This document shows positions 9,782 through 62,699 of a stretch of DNA of 64,000 nucleotides, piece after piece. The position numbers were made by a program, and so were the translations under genes. The DNA is from Prorocentrum cordatum. Its lineage: Eukaryota; Sar; Dinophyceae; Prorocentrales; Prorocentraceae. The stretch lies in assembly GCA_963575745.1 (NCBI GenBank), contig CAUYUJ010015848.1, positions 245,192 to 309,191 of the forward strand. Direction: 5' to 3'. The notes beneath the pieces were generated by a model. That model did no database searches. It was not told the origin of the DNA and saw only the letters and a list, made by a program, of their open reading frames with translations. Positions within the stretch are counted from its first letter, which is position 1; each line of letters starts with the position of its first letter.

Positions 9782-11947
9782 ATGTTGTTGGCTCAAGACC
9801 GTTTGGAGCGGTTTCCAGAATTCTCAGCGCTCCACTGCGAGTACGGGGCGGTGGCGCTTGCTGACTCCCGCGAGATGCACCAGTTGTCCTCGCCTGCGGG
9901 TGCGTTCCGATTCGATGAGGGACGGTCTCAACCGCCTGCTGCCGTTGGGCTCGCGGAGCTGATCAGGCAACAGGCCCTCGCTGCACGGCAGGTGCTGGCC
10001 CTCAACGAGCAGCTCGCGCTGGCTCTCGACGATCTGTCGGCTCGGGACCCTGGGAATCCAGAAGTTGTTGCTCCTCCAGCGGAAGCACTTTGTGAGTTCA
10101 AGGGCACGCCACTCGCATCCATGGACCCTACACAGTGCTCCATAGAGGATCCGACACAGTCGACGCCGCTGTTGCAGGGTGTGAAGACGGACGACTTCAA
10201 GAGCCGTGCATACTTGACGCAGAATCGGCTTAATGAGTGTAAGGCCATCGGGATCGTGAAGCAGAAGGCGGACCCGCATTTTTGCGAAGCGCGCGATTAC
10301 AAGGACCACGGCCTGTCCGCTAGGCTTGTAAAGCATCCAAGGTTCGAGTCGGTGATGTTCATCATGATCGTATTAAACAGTATCTGGCTTGGGGTTGAGG
10401 CAGACTACAACAAGGAGGACATATTATGCCAGGCTCCCTTGGTATTCCAGGTAGTGGACAATATATTCTGCACCTACTTCACCGTCGAGTTCATGCTGAG
10501 GTTCTTTGCCCTGAAGCACAGAGCAAGGGCGATGAGAACTGGACCATTTCTGCTGGACGCCTTCTTGGTCATTGTTAGTGTGTGGGAGACTTGGGTGCAA
10601 GTCCTCGTATTCCTCATCTTCCAGCGGAGGGCGGGCATGGGCGGCGTCCTCAAGAGCTCGCTTTCCCTGCGAGTGCTGCGCATAGTGCGTGTGCTTCGCG
10701 TGCTTCGCGCGTCGCGGTCCATGCCGGTGCTGCTCACATTCATGGAGGGCATGATCAAAGGCAGGGCTGGACCTAAACGCTGTTTTGCTGGACTTCGGCT
10801 ATGTTTTGTTTTTCGTTTTGGCATGGATGTACAGGACAACAGGTAGAGCAAAACGAAACCATAACGAAAACAAAACGAAAAACAACGTTTAGGTCCAGCC
10901 CTGATCAAAGGCGTGAAGGCCGTCGCCACGAGTCTCCTGCTCCTGATCGGAGTGATCTACGTGTTCGCTATCATGCTGCGCTGCCGCGCGCGATTCCGGC
11001 ACCGCGCTCGGGTGGGCGCGAGGGGGGGGGGGTCGCCTTGGGGGGATTCGCATATTTCGGGCCACTCACGCCCCCCCGCCGTCGTCACGCCATCCATATC
11101 CATTTCGGGGGGTCCGGGGGGCATCTTGGGCCACAGGGTTCGAATAGAATGTCCATGTACGGGAGGGGGGAGGGGGGAGGGTCCACGGACACCCCCTCTC
11201 CCGCAAGCTTTGCATGTGGACCATGCGTGTGCTTGGAAGGCCAAAACCGCAGGGACCAGGCGACAAAACACCGGGCGCAGCTCGGGCTCGATGCGGCGGG
11301 GGGCCCTGGCCGTTGCTCCGCAGAGGACGAAAGGGCCCGACGCACACCAACCGCCGCAGGCGCGGTGGCGGATTCTTTTCACCCAGCTGCTGGGGGGCAC
11401 AGCACCGTTTCAGTCGTCATTCGGCACCGTGTTGACGTCTGTGCACTTCCTCTTCCTCACGGCCCTCTGCAGCATCGACAAGAACTTCATCATCCAGATG
11501 CTCGACGCCGGATGGATGTGTTGGCTCATCTGGTTGCTCTTCATCTTGGTCGCGAACCTGACGATCATGAGGATGTTGACTGGCGTGATCCTGAGCCTTG
11601 TCCAGGACGTGAATGCGCAGAACAAGGGGAACGACGGGAAAAACCAGCTGATGCGAACAGTTTGTGTCATGATGGATGAAAACATGAACAATCGAATCTC
11701 GAGGGAAGAGTTCAAAGCACTGGCCAACCGCCCCGACCTCATGGAGCTTCTCACCGAGTCGGGAGTCGACCTGGGCTTCTTTGTCGAGACGATGCTGGAC
11801 AGCTGGCCGCACTACGAGGAAGTGTCCGCCGACCACTTGGTGACCCAGATGGTCAAGTGCCGCGGCTCCAACACCGTTACGCTGGAGGACCTGATCAGGC
11901 TTGGCGGCGCGCAAAAGGGGGTAGGGGGAGGGGGGACGGCTTTTTAG
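9782..11947 (+). CDS. Single-domain voltage-gated cation channel with EF-hand-like tail
   Basis: Predicted plasma- or internal-membrane channel. Exon 1 (9782-10760) encodes a ~190-residue N-terminal region, then S1 (VMFIMIVLNSIWLGVEA), S2 (VDNIFCTYFTVEFMLRFFAL), S3 (FLLDAFLVIVSVWETW) and an S4 with Arg about every third residue (SLRVLRIVRVLRVLRASR). Intron 1 (10761-10910) falls in the S4-S5 linker. Exon 2 (from 10911) encodes S5 (LLLLIGVIYVFAIML). Exon 3 (from ~11375) encodes the pore helix, a filter region around LTALCSID, S6 (LIWLLFILVANLTIMRMLTGV), and an acidic EF-hand-like helix-loop-helix at MMDENMNNRISREEFKAL. The filter lacks the TxExW pattern of animal Na/Ca channels, so selectivity is not predicted. 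The family is ion_trans; dinoflagellates have many such single-repeat channels. The stop at 11945 lies inside an inverted-repeat-bounded segment (11911-12061), so the real C-terminus may continue after another intron. The start at 9782 is a guess. Confidence 0.8.
10763..10902 (+). mobile_element. Introner: 140-bp TIR element forming channel intron 1
   Basis: Perfect 17-bp terminal inverted repeats (AGGGCTGGACCTAAACG at 10763-10779, its complement at 10886-10902) are flanked by a perfect 10-bp direct duplication GATCAAAGGC (10753-10762 and 10903-10912). Protein continuity (MEGMIKG then VKAVATSLL) places the intron at 10761-10910 with GC...AG borders. The duplicated target provides both the AG|GC donor and the AAAG acceptor. 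The spliced product restores one copy of the target and keeps the frame. This is the structure expected of a DNA-transposon-like introner, and its perfect repeats suggest a recent insertion. Confidence 0.92.
10993..11374 (+). repeat. Inverted-repeat-bounded intron 2 of the channel gene
   Basis: The sequence between S5 and the pore exon begins with ATTCCGGCACCGCGC (10993-11007) and ends with the near-complement GCGCGGTGGCGGATT (11360-11374), 13 of 15 positions pairing. The interior is G-rich with no protein similarity. No clear target duplication is seen, and the exact splice borders are not fixed by the protein. Confidence 0.6.
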
Positions 11948-12941: not shown

Positions 12942-13124
12942 CCCAGAGACCGGGCGTCTCGAAAAAATCGGGGCGGAGGTTGTTCGTGGGTTTCGGCCTC
13001 TCGGGGCCCTCGCCGGGCCTCGGGACCGTCAAAAAACGACCCGGGACGAAAAACCGGCCCTGGGGAAGTGGTCGGGAGCTCGGGGGCCCGTGTCCCGAAA
13101 GAATCGAGACGTCGGATGTCTGGG
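12942..13124 (+). mobile_element. MITE family A, copy 1 (183 bp)
   Basis: Begins CCCAGAGACCGGGCGTCTCG and ends with the near-inverse CGAGACGTCGGATGTCTGGG. The interior (CGGCCTCTCGGGGCCCTCGC, GGGACGAAAAACCGG, GGGAAGTGGTCGGGAG) is shared with the copies at 28207, 45105 and 61279. Target duplications are not clear. No coding capacity. Confidence 0.85.
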
Positions 13125-15496: not shown

Positions 15497-15588
<92 letters not shown>

Positions 15589-15651
15589 CAATGAGGAGGA
15601 GGAGGAGGAGGAGGAGGAGGAGGAGGAGGAGGAGGAGGAGGAGGAGGAGGG
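15497..15651. repeat. (ATG)n followed by (GAG)n
   Basis: About 30 ATG units (15497-15588), a short ACAATG break, then about 18 AGG units. This is the same ATG-to-AGG order as at 5766-5892. Confidence 0.95.
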
Positions 15652-15654
15652 GCT

Positions 15655-16340
15655 CTATGTGTACGCCAGGTCGTCTGGTCGACCACGGAGCCCACGAGCT
15701 CGGCGAAGGAATTCGATGTGTGGACGCTCCAGCATCCCGCAGGTTGGGAAGCTGGTGCTGGGGCGTCTATACACCCAGTTCCTTGGCCGACCGTACGATG
15801 TGGCGCACGGACGGGACTGGTTTGGCGCCCAGGGCGAAGAGGCTGGCTTGGCCAGGACTAGTTTTGGTCTGCGGATGCTTCCAAGCCTCGGCCCCACCGC
15901 CACTGCAGGAGGAGAAGGAGGAGATCTGATTCGAGTACATGTGGTGGTCTCTCTCCAATCGCTGCAGCTCATGCGCGCTATAAGCGGCTGTCGGAAAACG
16001 TATCCGTGTCCTCGGCCTCGCGGGCCGGGCCCTTGGGCCGCGACCCCGTGGATGCGGATGCACCGTGCGGAACGCACCCGTGCGAGATCACGCCGCCGAC
16101 TCCAGACCGCGAGGGCGCGAATATGGATACGTTCGCCGCGCGCGAATAATGTTGGATCTGGCCGTATACATTTTTCTAGGCTGCCCAGGTGGGGTCTAAG
16201 CAGCCGGGGTCGAAGGACCGCTCCGCATCGCCGATGTGAGACAGAGCCTCCTTTCGCCGACGTCGCAGATGCATCGCTGATGCATCGCCGATGCATCGGT
16301 GACGCATCGACGATGCGGCGCGATCCTCGACCCCATCTAC
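15655..16340. other. No recognisable gene
   Basis: Frames on both strands lack family signals. Near 16260-16320 there is a short run of GATGCATCG-type units. Confidence 0.5.
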
Positions 16341-16344
16341 GGTC

Positions 16345-16530
16345 GGGAACTTTTGGGCCGCGTGTCGCTCCGCCGGCTCTGGCCCACCACGCTTTGGCGC
16401 GACACGTTGTCCACGTGCCAGTCCCGCGGCGCCACCAGCGTCAACGTCCCCAATTCTTCCCGCCCAGCGGAGCGGAGCGACACGCTACCAGCTCGCAGGG
16501 GATGTCGTGTCGCCAGGGCCGCCGCGACAC
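16345..16530 (+). repeat. Dispersed ~180 bp repeat family S, copy 1
   Basis: Shares ordered blocks with 22975-23165, 31125-31290 and 43405-43600: TGGCCCACCACGCTTTGGCG, a CCAGCGTCAACGTCC-like block, GCGGAGCGGAGCGACACGCT, and CAGGGCCGCCGCGACACG. All four copies point the same way. No inverted ends or coding frame. SINE-like in size, but no pol III boxes could be identified. Confidence 0.75.
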
Positions 16531-16569
16531 GTTGAGCACAAGCTCCTGGTGGATGTCGATATCCTCGAG

Positions 16570-16934
<365 letters not shown>

Positions 16935-16956
16935 TCCGTAGCCATGTTGGCTCAAG
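16935..16956 (+). other. Dinoflagellate spliced-leader relic
   Basis: The 22 bases from TCCGTAGCCAT to TTGGCTCAAG match the conserved dinoflagellate spliced leader except for one T-to-G change at position 12. It sits exactly between an (ATC)n array and the LINE body, with an ATG seven bases downstream at 16963. It is not an SL RNA gene: no donor GT follows, and the sequence runs on as LINE. The known precedent is genomic integration of reverse-transcribed, trans-spliced messages in dinoflagellates. Confidence 0.93.
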
Positions 16957-17039
16957 GCCAAGATGGCGACACATCGACTCCCTAAGCGGGGTAGGCTTCC
17001 TTTAGACAGGTCTCGACAGCAGCGATCCGATCAGTCCTT

Positions 17040-28206: not shown

Positions 28207-28386
28207 CCCAGACATCGGGCGTCTCGAACAAGTCGAGACAGATGCTTTTCCTAGTTTTTGGCCTCTTGGGGCCCTCGCCGGGCCTCGGGACCGTCACAAA
28301 AGGGCTCGGGATGAAAAACCGGCTCCAGGGAAGTGGTCGGGAGGTCGGGGGCCCGCTTCTCGAAAAAATCGAGACGTCGGATGTCT
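28207..28386 (+). mobile_element. MITE family A, copy 2 (180 bp)
   Basis: Left end CCCAGACATCGGGCGTCTCG, right end CGAGACGTCGGATGTCT. The interior matches the other family A copies (GGGGCCCTCGCCGGGCCTCG). Confidence 0.85.
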
Positions 28387-45104: not shown

Positions 45105-45286
45105 CCAGACGTCGGGCGTCTCGAACAAATCGGGGCGGAGGTTTTTCGTGGCTTTCGGCCTCTCGAGGCCCGCGCCGGGCCTCGGGACCGGCAAAGAACG
45201 ACTCGGGACGAAAAACCGGTCCCGGGGAAGTGGTCGGGAGGTCGGGGGCCCGTGTCTCGAAAAAATCGAGACGTCGGATGTCTGGG
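45105..45286 (+). mobile_element. MITE family A, copy 3 (~181 bp)
   Basis: Left end CCAGACGTCGGGCGTCTCGA, right end CGAGACGTCGGATGTCTGG. The interior is the closest match to copy 1. GTAG occurs just outside both ends (with an extra AG on the left), a possible target duplication. Confidence 0.85.
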
Positions 45287-45334
45287 TAGTTCTTACATGC
45301 ATTACGCAATCTGTTGATTTTTCACGGGATAGCT

Positions 45335-57450: not shown

Positions 57451-58631
57451 CGCCAGGCGCCGGATGCCAATGCGCAGCCCGCCATCGTGCATCGAGACGG
57501 ATTCAAAGAAGACTGCCCGACAGTTTTTTCTTGTTTTGGGAGTCTGAACTGATTGATGCGAGCTGCACTGCCCGCCGCCCTCTCTTTGGAGGGTCAGTTG
57601 CAGTTTGTCCTGTATGTTGTTCCCCCGCCGCCCGTTTGTTTTGGGATACGGAGTGCGTTATTTTGCTTCCAGTGTGACGAGGAGCGAGCGGCGGTGGAGG
57701 TCGCAGAGATCGGACTTACAGTTAAGTGCGCACGCTCATTCCGTGAATGTCGCCAAGTGCGAGCATAGCACATGGCGCTACTGTGGAGACCCGTTTTCGA
57801 TGGTTTTGCGATGGAAATCGTGACGCTCCCACGCTAAAATCAATGAACACCCTGGGGTCTCAGGATTGGGTTTCTTGTGGAAGGTTTCTTGTGGACTGAC
57901 TGACTGTATCGCAGAGGAGGGGGCGGCCGTGGAGCTCACAGAGGACGCGCGTAAATGTACGTTTGCTTATAGCTTTACTGACCTTTGTCAAGGGCGAGCA
58001 GAATAAAGCGTCGTCGCTGAGTCACAGACACCGCACGTACATTACGCGCGCACGTAAACGTCGATGCTCCAAGTTTTTTCATTGCGCAGATTATTGGCCG
58101 CGCGGGCGCGGAGAGATGGGCGAGCTTGGCGAAACACGCGGCCGGTGCGTGGAAGCTCGCGAGCAGATCCCAACCCGCGAAGCCGACTTGAAATTGCCCG
58201 ATCTATTTTCAAGACCAACGTGTGTTTCATTATGCGGGTTAGTGTTCCTCTACTCTCCCCCCAGTCCTTGGCATCGTTCGGGCGTGTGCCTTGTTTCTCG
58301 GCGAGGACCCTCGAGGAGCATCTTGGATCACCCTGCGGAAGAAAGTGCCCCCCCCCACACCCCCTCCCCCCCTCTTCTGCCGAACGTCGGCTGGACGAAG
58401 ACTTGCGATGCAGTAGCCGGAACTCCTCCAGTAGCCGAACCTCCTTCTCCTCTTGCTGCGGCTCCTCCTCCTCTTGCCCCTCCTCGTGCCCCTCCTCCTC
58501 CTCCTCCTCCTCCTCCTCCTCCTCCTCCACCTCCTCCTCCTCCTCCTCCTCCTCCTCCTCCTGCTCCTCCTCCTCCCTCTCCCGCCTCCAGCGCTCCTCC
58601 AGCCCCCGCTGCACGGCCCCGTGGGCCGCAG

Positions 58632-61600
58632 ATGGAGGCGGCGCCCCCCGAGGCGCCCGGCCGGCCCAGGGCGGTCACGCTGCGGCTCGTGATGGAGCGG
58701 TCGCTGACCGCGGAGGAGCTCGCCGAGTACAACGGGCTGAGCTGGTGGGCTCGTCTTCCGCCGCCACCACCACGAGTGGGAGGGAGAGGGGGTCCTCCTC
58801 CTCCTGCTGCTCCTCCTCCTCCTGCTCCTCCTGCTCCTCCTCTTCCTCCTCCTGCTCCTCCTGTTCCTCCTTCTCCTCCTCCTCCTGCTCCTCCTCCTCC
58901 TGCTCCTCCTCCTCCTCCTCCTCTTCCTTCTCGTCCCCCTCCTCCTCCTCTTCCTCCTCCTCATCCTCCACCTCCTTACCCCCCCAACTTATGGTGGTGG
59001 TGGTGGAAAACAGGCCCATCATGAGCGAAGACGATGCCCTGGCGCGCGCGCAGGCTCTGAAGACGCTTCACCTGGAGTGGCAGAACATCGGGGAGATGGG
59101 CGGCCTGGACCTCTTCGAGAGGGCGGAGGTGCTCTACATGCAGTACAACAGCATCGAGCGCATCGTTAGATGCTCTTTTGGGGGACCTTCCTGGGGCCCA
59201 CCTGACGGATCTGTTCGACTTCAGTGCCACTCCTGTTCGACTCAAGTTCGCTTCAGGTTGGACTCAGGTTCGACCCAGGCTCGACTCGAGTTCGACGCGA
59301 AAAGGTGGACGTTCGACGCAGCTTCGACGCAAGAGTCGAGCGGGTGGCTCCAGGAAGGTCCCCAGAATGAGCATCTGAGCATCGAGAACCTGGAGTGCCT
59401 CCCCCGGCTGCAGTTCCTGGCCCTGCAGGGGAACTCCGGGGCGGCAAAGAGGGGAGTGATGACTAGGGGGGGGTGGATATCATGGCGGGGGCCATGATAT
59501 TTCCCCAGATTTCATGGCGCCTCTTCTTATTTCATTACGTCCCTGGCCCCCCCGCTGGGCCGCGCACATGCCGCCGGCCATGATTTGCACCCCCCGCCTC
59601 TTGGACGCCCCCCTCTTGGCCGCTCCCGAGGAACCGCATCCGGGCCGTCGAGAACCTCCTGCAGCTGCGCGCACTCGAGTTCCTGGACCTCTCCAGGAAC
59701 CAGGTCCAGAGCCTCGACGAACAGGATCGGCGGCGGGCCCAGGGGGGAAGTGAGCAGAGGCGGGCCTTCTCAGAAGGCTCCGGAAGGCCTCAGGCCTCCG
59801 GAGAAGTCCCCAAAGCCTGCCCCGAAGCCACAGAACACTCCTCAGAGGGCGCGATGGCTTCGGAGAAGCCCCGCCGCCTCCTGAGGTTCCTGCCCCCTCT
59901 CGCTTCCCCCAGGCTCGCCGCCACAGGAACTCCCACCGTCGATAAACATCCGAGGAAGAAAGAGCGGTGCAAACAGAAAGTGTCGGAGATCCGCGCGTGC
60001 TTCTTGGGCCAGCGCTCTGCCGCCCTCCCCGGCGCCCCTCCGCCGCCAGAGGGGGGTCCAGCGCCGCTCCTAGAGGTCCGCGCGGACCCCCGAGGGCCTG
60101 TGCTCGTTCCGCTGTTTCTTCCTCCGGACGTGCTCAACCTGAGAGACAACCCGTGCACGAAGGCTCCGGGGTGGACAGATCGGGGGTCCCCAAACGGGGT
60201 GGTGACCGCACCGTTCGGTGAGTCGGTGGGGATTCGGGGTCACCGCACGGTTTTGGGACTCGGGTCGTTCTCCGAGGATGTCTCGGGCGACAGGGACCTC
60301 CAGGGTCCCAAGACCGTGCGGTGACGGACCGTGCGGTGAGGTCTCTAGGGGTTCCGAGGTCACCGCACGGTCTGTCACCGCACCGTTTCGGAAACCCCCC
60401 ACCCCCGACGCGTCGATGAGTGAATGGTCCGTTTTCGGTTATCGAGAGGGCTCCGCGGCCGTCGTTTCCCAGGCTTGAGCCCGCCAGGTTTGGGCCCGAA
60501 ATCGTTTTCACTAAACCACGTTTTGCTACAGGGTTTACTGTCCATCCCCAGAAGGCGTGTGGAGGACGATCAACGGAGAGGAAGCATGTTGCCAAATACT
60601 TTCCAGATGTCTAAAGCATGTATTACGTAAACATGTTTTGAACATGTAAAAGCCTGCTCAGAACATGTTTAGAGCACGCGTCCGACACTTTCAGCACATG
60701 TTCAACTCAATGCCAGGACTGTTAGGGTGTCCACTGCCATGGCATCCACAATGCTACAGGGGCTGCTGTCCATCCCCCAAAATAATGGAAAAAATAATAT
60801 GGGGACGATCTTGCTAGTATTCTTGCTGGGTCCTGCTCGAGTCCGTTTGACTACTTCTTTTTTTTCGCCCAAGATGCGCAGGCCTTCGACTACGCCGAGC
60901 GGGTGCAGCGGAGGCTCCCCGGCCTCGGTTCGAGTCTGTTTGACTATTTCTGATTGACTATTTCTGATTTGGGGCTCGGTTCGAGTCTGGGCTCGGTTCG
61001 AGTCTGTTTGACTATTTCCGATTTTTCGCCCAAGATGCGCAGGCCTTCGACTACGCCGAGCGGGTGCAGCGGAGGCTCCCCGGCCTCCTCCTCCTCGACG
61101 GCGAGCCGCCGGCGGGCCCGCCCGGCGCCCCGGCCGCGGCCGCCGCCGGCCCGCGCCGGGCGCCGCCCGCCGAGGCGGCCGAGGGCGCGCCCCTGGCCGC
61201 CTCGCAGGGGCTCTCCGCGTTCCACGACCGCCGGGCCATGCAGGCGCCTGGATCAGAAGCAGCGGCGGAGCGTCTCTCCCCAGAGATCCAACGTATCGAA
61301 AAAATCAAGACGGAGGTTTTTCACAATTTTCGGCATCAAGGGGCCCTCGCCGGGCCCCGGGACCGTCAAAAAACGACTCAGGATGAAAAACCGGTCCCGG
61401 GGAACGGGTCGAGACCTCCGGGGGCCCCGTATTGAAAAAATCACGACGTTGGATCTCTGGGTCTGCACATCGGTGAATGTTCCAAGAACGTCGCTTTTGT
61501 TCTGAGAGCATGGGCGAAGCGTGGCGAAGCGTCCTGCTGCACGAACGAGGTGGGCACGGGAAGAGGGGGTGCAACGCCCAACAGCCGGTCCTGTTCCTTT

Positions 61601-62655
61601 CGGTTCCGCTGCACGAACGCGGTGGGCACGGAAAGAGTGGGTGCAATGCCCAGCAGCCGGTCCTGTTCCTGTTGGCACGGGATTCGCTGTCCACGCCGCC
61701 GCGGCCTGGGTCCATTCGAGGCAGGAGGCCGCCTGCCCAACAGCGGCCGCTGTTGGTTTGGGACAACCTTTGTTGTTGGGCATTGTGCCCATTCTTTCCG
61801 TACCCATTCCGGGCGTCCAAAGTCCTGGCTCGCCTGTAGCCCCACCAAAGAATGTTCTAAGAGCCTGTTGTGGTTTCCAGGAGATGTTCTTGGAGCATGT
61901 CTGGCCGGGAGCGTCTTGTTTTACACATCGGGTGAGTGTTCTAAGAACAGTGTTTTTGTTATTGGGACTGTTTTGGGTTCTAAGAACATTTCGTGGTAGG
62001 ACTACAGGAATGCCGGGACGGTCGGTCCCTGCTCAATCGGCTGCCCTGACGCATCCGCGTTGAGACGCGGCACGTGCTCGCAGGTCGTCGAACGTCTACG
62101 TCAGAGCGAGGGGGCCGAGCGATCGTTCCTTGTCCCTGGATGCGTGGCCGAAGTGGGGATCCGCCGGGCCCTGCGGGCTCGGGGGAGCGAGAAGCTCGGA
62201 GGGCCGCGCGGATTTCCCGGACCCGCGCTGGACCCACGGCGTTTTCTGCTCCTAGCCCCACTCCTGGTAGTCCCAGTGCTCCATCCTTCTCCCTCCCCTT
62301 TCCATCCGTCCTCTCTTCCCTTGTTTCAGGGGCTGCACCAATTGCACGCGGCGGGTAAGGAAGATATGCCCCCAGGGGGGCGCGATCAAAGACGAAGAGG
62401 GCGGGTATCGAGGGTTTGTGACATACGTGTTAAATGGCACGCGAACAGGTCTGAAAATGTTTGTTATTATTGTGTGTGTGTGTGTTGCGTATCGGGGCAG
62501 CCAAGTGCAGGCGGAGTCGGCGGCGAACGTCGCGGCCGCGCTGGAGGCGTACACCGCCGAGGCTCTGGCGGACGTGGAGGGCTTCTCCGGGCACGTGGAA
62601 GGGGCGCTGGGCCGCAGCAGGGCGCGCCGCGACGCGCTGCCCGAGCCGAGGCTGA
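58632..62655 (+). CDS. Leucine-rich repeat protein, LRRC46-like (probable ciliary protein), multi-exon
   Basis: Exons joined by protein continuity are E1 58632-~58741 (RSLTAEELAEYNGLS), E2 ~59023-59165 (DALARAQALKTLHLEWQNIG then AEVLYMQYNSIERI), E3 ~59380-59430 (ENLECLPRLQFLALQG), E4 59631-59724 (NRIRAVENLLQLRALEFLDL then SRNQVQSLDEQ), E5 59927-59947 (ELPPSIN), E6 from ~60130 (VLNLRDNPCTK), E7 61032-~61250 (DAQAFDYAERVQRRLPGLLL then DGEPPAG) and E8 62503-~62653 (AESAANVAAALEAYTAEALA). The repeats follow the SDS22-type pattern LxxLxLxxNxI with ENL caps. The order of repeats, a short LxLRDNPC closing repeat and a helical DYAERV...LLLLDG segment fit LRRC46-type axonemal proteins. E8 ends at a consensus GTGAGT donor, so more exons probably follow. 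The start ATG at 58632 is the first in frame. Introns 1-5 have terminal inverted repeats. Exon borders of introns 1, 2, 5 and 6 are uncertain by a few bases. Confidence 0.8.
58743..59021 (+). mobile_element. Introner-like element, LRR gene intron 1 (279 bp)
   Basis: Left end TGGTGGGCTCGTCTTCCGCC and on (~42 bp) pairs with the right end down to CAGGCCCATCA. Direct duplication TGAGC at 58738-58742 and 59022-59026. The middle is a (TCC)n array. The protein junction (GLS|EDD) restores one copy of the duplication. Confidence 0.82.
59166..59378 (+). mobile_element. Introner-like element, LRR gene intron 2 (213 bp)
   Basis: Left end TTAGATGCTCTTTTGGGGGA CCTTCCTGG pairs with right end CCAGGAAGGTCCCC...GAGCATCTGA over ~38 bp (about 85%). 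Direct duplication GCATCG at 59160-59165 and 59379-59384. The interior holds a TTCGACTCAGG short repeat. The protein requires the join ...ERI|ENL. Sliding the borders within the duplication gives CA...AG or GT...TC, both unusual. Confidence 0.85.
59435..59629 (+). mobile_element. Introner, LRR gene intron 3 (195 bp, GA-AG borders)
   Basis: Ends TCCGGGGCGGCAAAGAGGGG and, inverted, TCGGGAGCGGCCAAGAGGGG (17 of 20 pair). Direct duplication GGAAC at 59430-59434 and 59630-59634. Protein continuity (LQG|NRI) sets the intron at 59431-59630 with GA...AG. A relative lies at 2578-2730. Confidence 0.88.
59727..59923 (+). mobile_element. Introner, LRR gene intron 4 (197 bp, GA-AG borders)
   Basis: Ends TCGGCGGCGGGCCCAGGGGG GAAG and, inverted, TGGCGGCGAGCCTGGGGGAA G. 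Direct duplication CAGGA at 59722-59726 and 59924-59928. The duplication provides the AG|GA donor and the CAG acceptor (intron 59725-59926). Confidence 0.88.
59948..60129 (+). mobile_element. Introner-like element, LRR gene intron 5 (~182 bp)
   Basis: Left end CATCCGAGGAAGAAAGAGCG G pairs with right end CCGCTGTTTCTTCCTCCGGACG over ~22 bp with one gap. Flanks ACAT and ACGT may be an eroded 4-bp duplication. The protein join SIN|VLN implies AT...AC or another border without AG, so the exact splice sites are uncertain. Confidence 0.7.
60200..60390. repeat. Cluster of CACCGCACGGT motifs in both orientations
   Basis: Six copies of (T)CACCGCAC(G/C)GT or its complement. Two of them (60238-60260 and 60303-60325) form a ~22-bp stem. 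The cluster lies in LRR gene intron 6. Confidence 0.85.
60405..60550 (+). repeat. Repeat family E, copy 2
   Basis: Homologous to 37225-37395; here directly followed by family F. Confidence 0.8.
60555..60765 (+). repeat. Repeat family F, copy 2
   Basis: Homologous to 28800-29000, with ACATGTTT motifs and GCCATGGCATCCACA near the end. Confidence 0.85.
60864..61087 (+). repeat. Tandem duplication of the 5' half of LRR exon 7 with its acceptor
   Basis: TTCGCCCAAGATGCGCAGGC and the next ~43 bp occur at 60864 and again 161 bp later at 61025, with the preceding TTTGACTA(C/T)TTC tract also copied. The second copy runs on into coding sequence (LLLLDGEPP); the first is cut short. Confidence 0.88.
61279..61461 (+). 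mobile_element. MITE family A, copy 4 (183 bp), within LRR intron 7
   Basis: Perfect 15-bp ends CCCAGAGATCCAACG and its complement. The interior matches the family (GGGGCCCTCGCCGGGCCCCG). The element starts about 30 bp after the last confident codon of exon 7. Confidence 0.88.
61541..61810. repeat. ~76-bp tandem duplication plus an inverted third copy
   Basis: GCACGAACG(A/C)GGTGGGCACG to CAGCCGGTCCTGTTCC occurs twice in tandem (61541, 61617). A diverged complement (TTGTTGGGCATTGTGCCCAT TCTTTCCGTACCC) lies at 61770-61805. Confidence 0.8.
62334..62501 (+). repeat. Possible family G element at the acceptor of LRR exon 8
   Basis: The right end GTGTTGCGTATCGGGGCAGC C lies directly before the exon 8 acceptor (AAGTGCAG). 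The left end GGCTGCACCAATTGCACGC is a weak inverse match. If real, it is another inverted-repeat intron end. Confidence 0.4.
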
Positions 62656-62699
62656 TGGAGTGAGTGCGCGGCAACCGCAGCTGCCGGTGCTCCTGATCC

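Follow-up and report, generated by a model that had tools for sequence, protein, structure and literature searches.

In the stretch of Prorocentrum cordatum DNA analysed here (hereafter the window; 64,000 nucleotides, whose own positions are used throughout), an LRRC46-like gene lies on the plus strand at 58632-62663, with its ATG at 58632, its stop codon ending at 62663, and eight exons separated by seven introns, the first five of which are consecutive elements of 178-279 bp whose terminal inverted repeats (TIRs) end at the exon junctions. The reading that we favor, at a probability of roughly 55%, is that these elements represent five families, that each was likely inserted into an unbroken exon and is likely removed together with one copy of its flanking direct repeat, and that pairing between the element ends likely guides the cuts that fall outside the splice consensus. 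The origin of new introns is an old open question, and this gene holds five introns from five families with the target duplications still readable in four; since the duplicated targets are readable, the pre-insertion sequence, the rule of insertion, and the splice junction that the protein requires can be compared at the level of single bases.

The coding sequence was modeled by homology. In a profile search with a first model of 270 aa, the Pfam families LRR_4 and LRR_8 passed their cut-offs and LRR_9 did not, and 24 homologues were found at E <= 1e-3 among 7997 candidates scored, some of them annotated as leucine-rich repeat-containing protein 46 and one belonging to the dinoflagellate Effrenium voratum. 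The junctions were set by length, the first model being aligned with 22 of the 24 homologues, and the final model, in which each element is removed along with one repeat copy, has 265 residues. The closest homologue (P0001) is 73% identical over the whole length, and 76% identical in the alignment made with the first model. The exons, all placed by homologue alignment, are as follows:

58632..58742, plus strand: exon 1, ending in the first copy of TGAGC
59027..59165, plus strand: exon 2
59385..59434, plus strand: exon 3
59635..59726, plus strand: exon 4
59929..59949, plus strand: exon 5, 21 nt
60132..60162, plus strand: exon 6
61043..61246, plus strand: exon 7
62514..62663, plus strand: exon 8, with the stop codon

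Junctions 1-7 were free of gaps within 8 residues in 22, 24, 23, 24, 24, 24, and 23 of the 24 homologues, respectively, and all seven rejoin into a single open frame that ends where the three closest homologues end. The length of the predicted protein thereby strongly supports a removal of introns 1-5 at the element ends. A long CTC/CCT repeat tract is also present 5′ of the start codon (58440-58600), and a similar tract lies between the arms of intron 1.

The gene might instead be broken, with one or more of the elements being recent insertions that are not removed. Two database searches limited to lengths of 148-472 and 263-838 aa returned no protein identical to the predicted product, and the copy in intron 3 shares 93-97% identity with the best of its relatives, which would fit a recent date for at least this one insertion. 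On the other side stand the restored frame with its conserved end and the state of the other elements: the copies in introns 2, 4, and 5 have diverged from the relatives found, yet the exons around them have stayed free of stops at the above identity to P0001. We regard a broken gene as improbable. Precise excision of a transposon leaves one repeat copy and restores the frame, which is also the outcome modeled here, and the elements could in principle be cut from DNA rather than RNA in the manner of the internal eliminated sequences of ciliates; the assembled genome contains the elements, however, and to our knowledge no somatic genome has been described for dinoflagellates, making this the least credible of the explanations by far. 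The anatomy of the five introns is listed below:

58743..59021, plus strand: intron 1 element, 279 bp, TIR TGGTGGGC..GCCCATCA; exact 5-bp direct repeat TGAGC at 58738-58742 and 59022-59026
59166..59378, plus strand: intron 2 element, 213 bp, TIR AGATGCTC..GAGCATCT; exact 6-bp direct repeat GCATCG at 59160-59165 and 59379-59384
59435..59629, plus strand: intron 3 element, 195 bp, TIR TCCGGGGCGG..CCGCTCCCGA; exact 5-bp direct repeat GGAAC at 59430-59434 and 59630-59634
59727..59923, plus strand: intron 4 element, 197 bp, TIR TCGGCGGCGGGC..GCTCGCCGCCA; exact 5-bp direct repeat CAGGA at 59722-59726 and 59924-59928
59950..60127, plus strand: intron 5 element, about 178 bp, TIR GAGGAAGAAAGAGCGG / CCGCTGTTTCTTCCTC; imperfect 4-nt repeat with one mismatch, ACAT at 59946-59949 and ACGT at 60128-60131

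The inverted repeats begin no more than three bases from the element ends, and their aligned arms reach at least 16 nt, with mismatches, in all five introns. To evaluate the arms, the 40 nt at the start of each intron were locally aligned with the reverse complement of the 40 nt at its end; among 1000 arm pairs with shuffled dinucleotides, 0, 0, 1, 4, and 0 reached the scores of introns 1-5, respectively. Random segments of the same length drawn from the window reached them in 14/2976, 4/2987, and 19/2990 cases for introns 1-3 and in 14/2990 and 36/2983 cases for introns 4 and 5, a control that is conservative because the window contains further elements of this kind. When the introns were compared with one another, introns 2-5 gave no match to any other member of the five; the interior of intron 1 consists mostly of low-complexity CCT repeats, and its comparison with the others therefore relies on the ends.

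A first-pass annotation of this DNA had described inverted repeats at both ends of each of the five introns, the duplications TGAGC, GCATCG, GGAAC, and CAGGA, and elements that are not copies of one another. The arms indeed exceed shuffled arms and most random segments, the four duplications are exact, and no match links one family to another, each having repeated relatives of its own. The same annotation had placed the junction of intron 5 at an AAC repeat, and here it needs correction: the homologues indicate an intron of 182 nt with the imperfect ACAT/ACGT repeat, and the candidate intron of 191 nt with the AAC repeat aligned worse in 24/24 homologues.

Relatives of the five introns were sought in the genome (4.128 Gb in 21,875 contigs), with copy numbers being lower bounds because 40 candidates were scored per search. 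All five introns have repeated relatives of their own elsewhere, strongly so for introns 2 and 3, with those of introns 1, 4, and 5 being fewer or more diverged. The copies fetched were the top-scoring ones, a choice biased towards young copies with intact duplications. For the intron 3 family, many matches of 93-97% run from border to border, and the sample comprised 41 distinct full-length copies including that of the window, three rows having been dropped as partial, edge, or duplicate. An exact 5-bp duplication flanks 24 of the 41 (permuted flanks: mean 1.5, maximum 7), and exact matches at 6 bp and at 7 bp were found in two copies and one copy, respectively, so that up to three of the 17 copies without the exact 5-bp duplication match at one of these lengths. 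For the intron 2 family, the best 40 of 2140 candidates scored gave at least 39 other matches at 82-87%, and 36 of the 39 were fetched, which with the window's copy and after subtraction of one row with duplicate flanks yielded 36 sites. An exact 6-bp duplication was present at 20 of these (permuted mean 0.64, maximum 4), and at 26 the two sides differed by at most one mismatch, leaving 16 sites without the exact duplication and 10 with two or more mismatches; none of the 36 had an exact duplication 4 or 5 bp long. One copy of this family (L064) carries on its left side the same eight bases, GCGCATCG, as intron 2 of the window, with no matching duplication on its right side.

Four copies with similar ends, including the window's, were found for intron 1, and the flanks of the three others (L002, L029, L030) have no perfect duplication; intron 4 has relatives with similar ends (L062, L003, L012, L033); and the relatives of intron 5 form a diverged family of hairpins, in which at least 14 relatives were compared and the best 40 of 517 candidates scored are 69-91% identical over inner stretches. 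A 200-kb genome sample held three intron 3 matches and one intron 2 match, this being a non-random sample of ten contigs that already had an intron 3 match. Because the duplications in the intron 2 and intron 3 families lie far above those of permuted flanks, these introns appear to be introners, formed when short non-autonomous DNA transposons inserted into the gene. We consider this history nearly certain for introns 2 and 3 and well supported for the other three. The earlier proposal that TIR elements of the introner kind entered the gene in at least five independent events is supported, with exact target duplications in four. We infer a non-autonomous transposition in which an outside transposase would have moved short inverted-repeat elements into a once unbroken exon, each element together with one repeat copy then being removed at the RNA level.

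How these insertions relate to splice sites differs among the introns. At the junctions demanded by the homologues, a GT/GC/GA..AG register exists for introns 3, 4, 6, and 7 and is lacking for introns 1, 2, and 5, in every repeat register of which these pairs are absent; introns 3 and 4 fit as GA..AG (intron 4: AG|GA..AG|G) and are likely spliced as such. The first-pass annotation had likewise read two junctions as GA..AG and the others as fitting the consensus poorly. In intron 3, the GA and the last G would come from the target and the A of the final AG from the element. The family points to a general route, as its element ends in ..CCGA and a sense insertion at GGANN therefore gives G|GA....CGAG|GA, a GA..AG register; 15 of the 24 copies with exact duplications sit at a target starting with GGA, and a GT/GC/GA..AG register is available to 16/24 of them in sense and 0/24 in antisense orientation (random sites: 578/5000). 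Target preference would in this way likely render an insertion spliceable. Alongside it are insertions without a spliceable consensus which the gene seems to survive: the intron 2 family rarely yields consensus sites (5/20 exact-duplication sites in sense, 1/20 in antisense), so when this family inserts into exons the result might mostly be harmful, and the copy in this gene need not represent the family. The role as an intron was assessed for one copy per family, the copy in the LRRC46-like gene.

It is conceivable that all five are ordinary GT/GC/GA..AG spliceosomal introns whose sites lie slightly off the element ends, with residues altered at introns 1, 2, and 5. In-frame consensus options do exist for these three introns, and PMC9860276 describes introners that add codons or delete them. 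We scored all in-frame, stop-free alternatives with a donor within 45 nt against 26 homologues (42 for intron 1, 77 for intron 2, and 35 for intron 5), and 0/154 matched these homologues as well on average as the element-end junctions; such sites would also change leucine-rich repeats of conserved length. The cost varies by intron. The best alternatives for intron 1 have mean scores of -8.7 and -9.1, with one residue gained or lost, the options being GT58745-AG59025 (one residue more) and GA58739-AG59025 (one residue fewer), and given so small a penalty (8.7 or 9.1 points and one residue) an ordinary GT..AG or GA..AG site is quite possible there. Options for intron 2, among them GT59165 with AG59371 or AG59386, carry a penalty of at least 13.9, and those for intron 5 of at least 17.4; two of the latter keep the exact length (means -17.4 and -17.9) but lose the conserved MLNLR, GA59962-AG60143 leaves the length unchanged, and the best swaps MLNLR for IRGRK. 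Every one of the six best-ranked options for intron 2, and likewise for intron 5, was worse in 26/26 homologues. As their penalties are larger than that of intron 1, introns 2 and 5 are the firm non-consensus cases, and we hold ordinary splicing of all five to be unlikely, while still the foremost of the alternatives.

Introns 2 and 5, and possibly 1, would likely be recognized instead through their paired ends, the consensus register being absent. Folds predicted for the introns with 20-nt flanks pair the ends in all five, in line with the earlier suggestion that folding brings the ends together, and are more stable than those of dinucleotide shuffles (60 each), with z of -3.5, -5.1, -4.0, -5.3, and -6.7 for introns 1-5, although any TIR folds and a stable fold alone is accordingly no proof that splicing uses it. 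If the U2 spliceosome were relaxed enough to accept unusual ends (such as CT..AG in intron 1 and CA..AG in intron 2), the fold would have no role, and introns 1 and 2 do have registers with a terminal AG. Intron 5, however, has no register ending in AG, the donors share nothing, and the end-to-end folds are predicted in every one of the five, and we find this explanation rather unlikely. That paired ends guide the removal of introns 2 and 5 is inferred by exclusion, with Amoebophrya, euglenids, and diplonemids as analogues.

The last two introns of the gene, and a TIR element of the same kind as introns 1-5 elsewhere in the window, are as follows:

60163..61042, plus strand: intron 6, GC..AG (AAG|GC..CAG|GC), direct repeat AGGC
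61247..62513, plus strand: intron 7, GC..AG register, direct repeat TGCAGGCG at 61239-61246 and 62506-62513
10763..10902, plus strand: TIR element splitting an ion-channel gene, 140 bp, 10-bp direct repeat GATCAAAGGC (10753-10912), GC..AG register

By the arm-alignment test used for introns 1-5, the TIRs of introns 6 and 7 were not above chance. Placing intron 6 at an AGAT repeat was rejected, as it adds eight residues missing from the 22 aligned homologues. The acceptor and the start of exon 7 are duplicated (60826-60926 and 60987-61087; 101 nt, 91% identical, 161 nt apart), and this partial duplication of exon 7 inside intron 6 supplies a second possible acceptor for that intron, which also contains a hairpin sequence with repeated GTCACCGCACGG blocks (60181-60410), a relative of which (L049) is 90% identical over 209 nt. 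Intron 7 contains an inverted-repeat element in its interior rather than at its ends (61279-61461), with relatives in the window at 12942-13124, 28207-28386, and 45117-45287. With the ion-channel element removed, the alignment to Pfam Ion_trans (PF00520) crosses the junction (profile 61-146 vs 61-121). That element was one of six candidates from a window-wide TIR scan (exact 10-nt seeds, repeats of at least 5 bp), a scan that missed introns 1-5 and is therefore insensitive. The open frame at 15497-17002 gave a sub-threshold match to CDC45 (31.5 bits against a cut-off of 34).

In broader terms, a free-living core dinoflagellate may remove non-consensus introns by reading the TIR hairpin, and almost any inverted-repeat insertion might then be tolerable, a proposition that we put somewhat short of even odds. 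If confirmed with RNA, splicing guided by structure would no longer be confined to euglenids, diplonemids, and one parasitic lineage of dinoflagellates but would include a core dinoflagellate, and genes in dinoflagellates would have to be annotated differently; published gene models restricted to GT/GC/GA..AG would, if this is true, have missed non-consensus hairpin introns.

Dinoflagellate introners with TIRs and target-site duplications (TSDs) are already described (PMC7789003, PMC9860276), as the first-pass annotation had stated. Within open-licence literature searched by titles and the starts of abstracts, no report of introns without GT/GC/GA..AG in a core dinoflagellate was found among the matches listed. 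In P. cordatum itself, PMC10666404 describes introners as introns with an excess of short direct repeats and of simple inverted repeats at either end, features shared by introns 1-5. That study modified its gene-model tools so that GC and GA donors were allowed; an intron lacking GT/GC/GA..AG would likely be missed, and the 6-bp duplication of intron 2 falls outside its search for direct repeats of 3-5 nt.

The introners of Symbiodinium and Polarella, as presented in PMC9860276 and the review PMC11453091, resemble those described here in being DNA-transposon-like, with TSDs and TIRs and many families per genome (12,253 introns from recent insertions in Polarella, according to the review). In Symbiodinium the donor is taken from the TSD (PMC9860276), just as the donor of intron 3 would come from its duplicated target. 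Their splice-site nucleotides are given as GY/AG (GC/GA..AG in Symbiodiniaceae), whereas neither intron 2 nor intron 5 has a register of this kind. The nonconventional introns of euglenids and diplonemids (PMC4770533, PMC12621601) share the variable ends, the direct repeats, an RNA structure that joins the ends (predicted in our case), and a proposed MITE-like origin. The likeness to euglenids drawn by the first-pass annotation was tested at the intron ends: +4..+6 can pair with -8..-6 in one or two registers of each of introns 1-4, but in 0/5 registers of intron 5, and the CAG/CTG signature, a form given for 33/55 sequences in PMC4770533, occurs in no register of introns 1-5. By the CAG/CTG signature, introns 1-5 do not belong to the euglenid nonconventional introns.

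The closest described match is that of the introner elements of Amoebophrya, for which PMC7789003 reports inverted repeats of 8-20 nt and direct repeats of 3-5 nt in about 11% and 30% of the non-canonical introns of strains A25 and A120, and no U1 snRNA detected in the genomes. The review PMC11453091 also gives boundaries other than GT/GC/GA..AG for Amoebophrya; of the introns described here, 2 and 5 appear to lack GT/GC/GA..AG, 1 is ambiguous, and 3 and 4 read as GA..AG. The direct repeats in P. cordatum are exact at 5, 6, 5, and 5 nt and imperfect at 4, the 6-nt repeat lying outside the Amoebophrya range, and the host is a free-living core dinoflagellate. With these differences, the two sets of introns have in common a short length, inverted repeats at both ends (present here in five of five introns), direct repeats that span the exon borders, hairpins predicted from the sequence, a spread like that of transposable elements, and, apparently for introns 2 and 5, termini that depart from the splice consensus.
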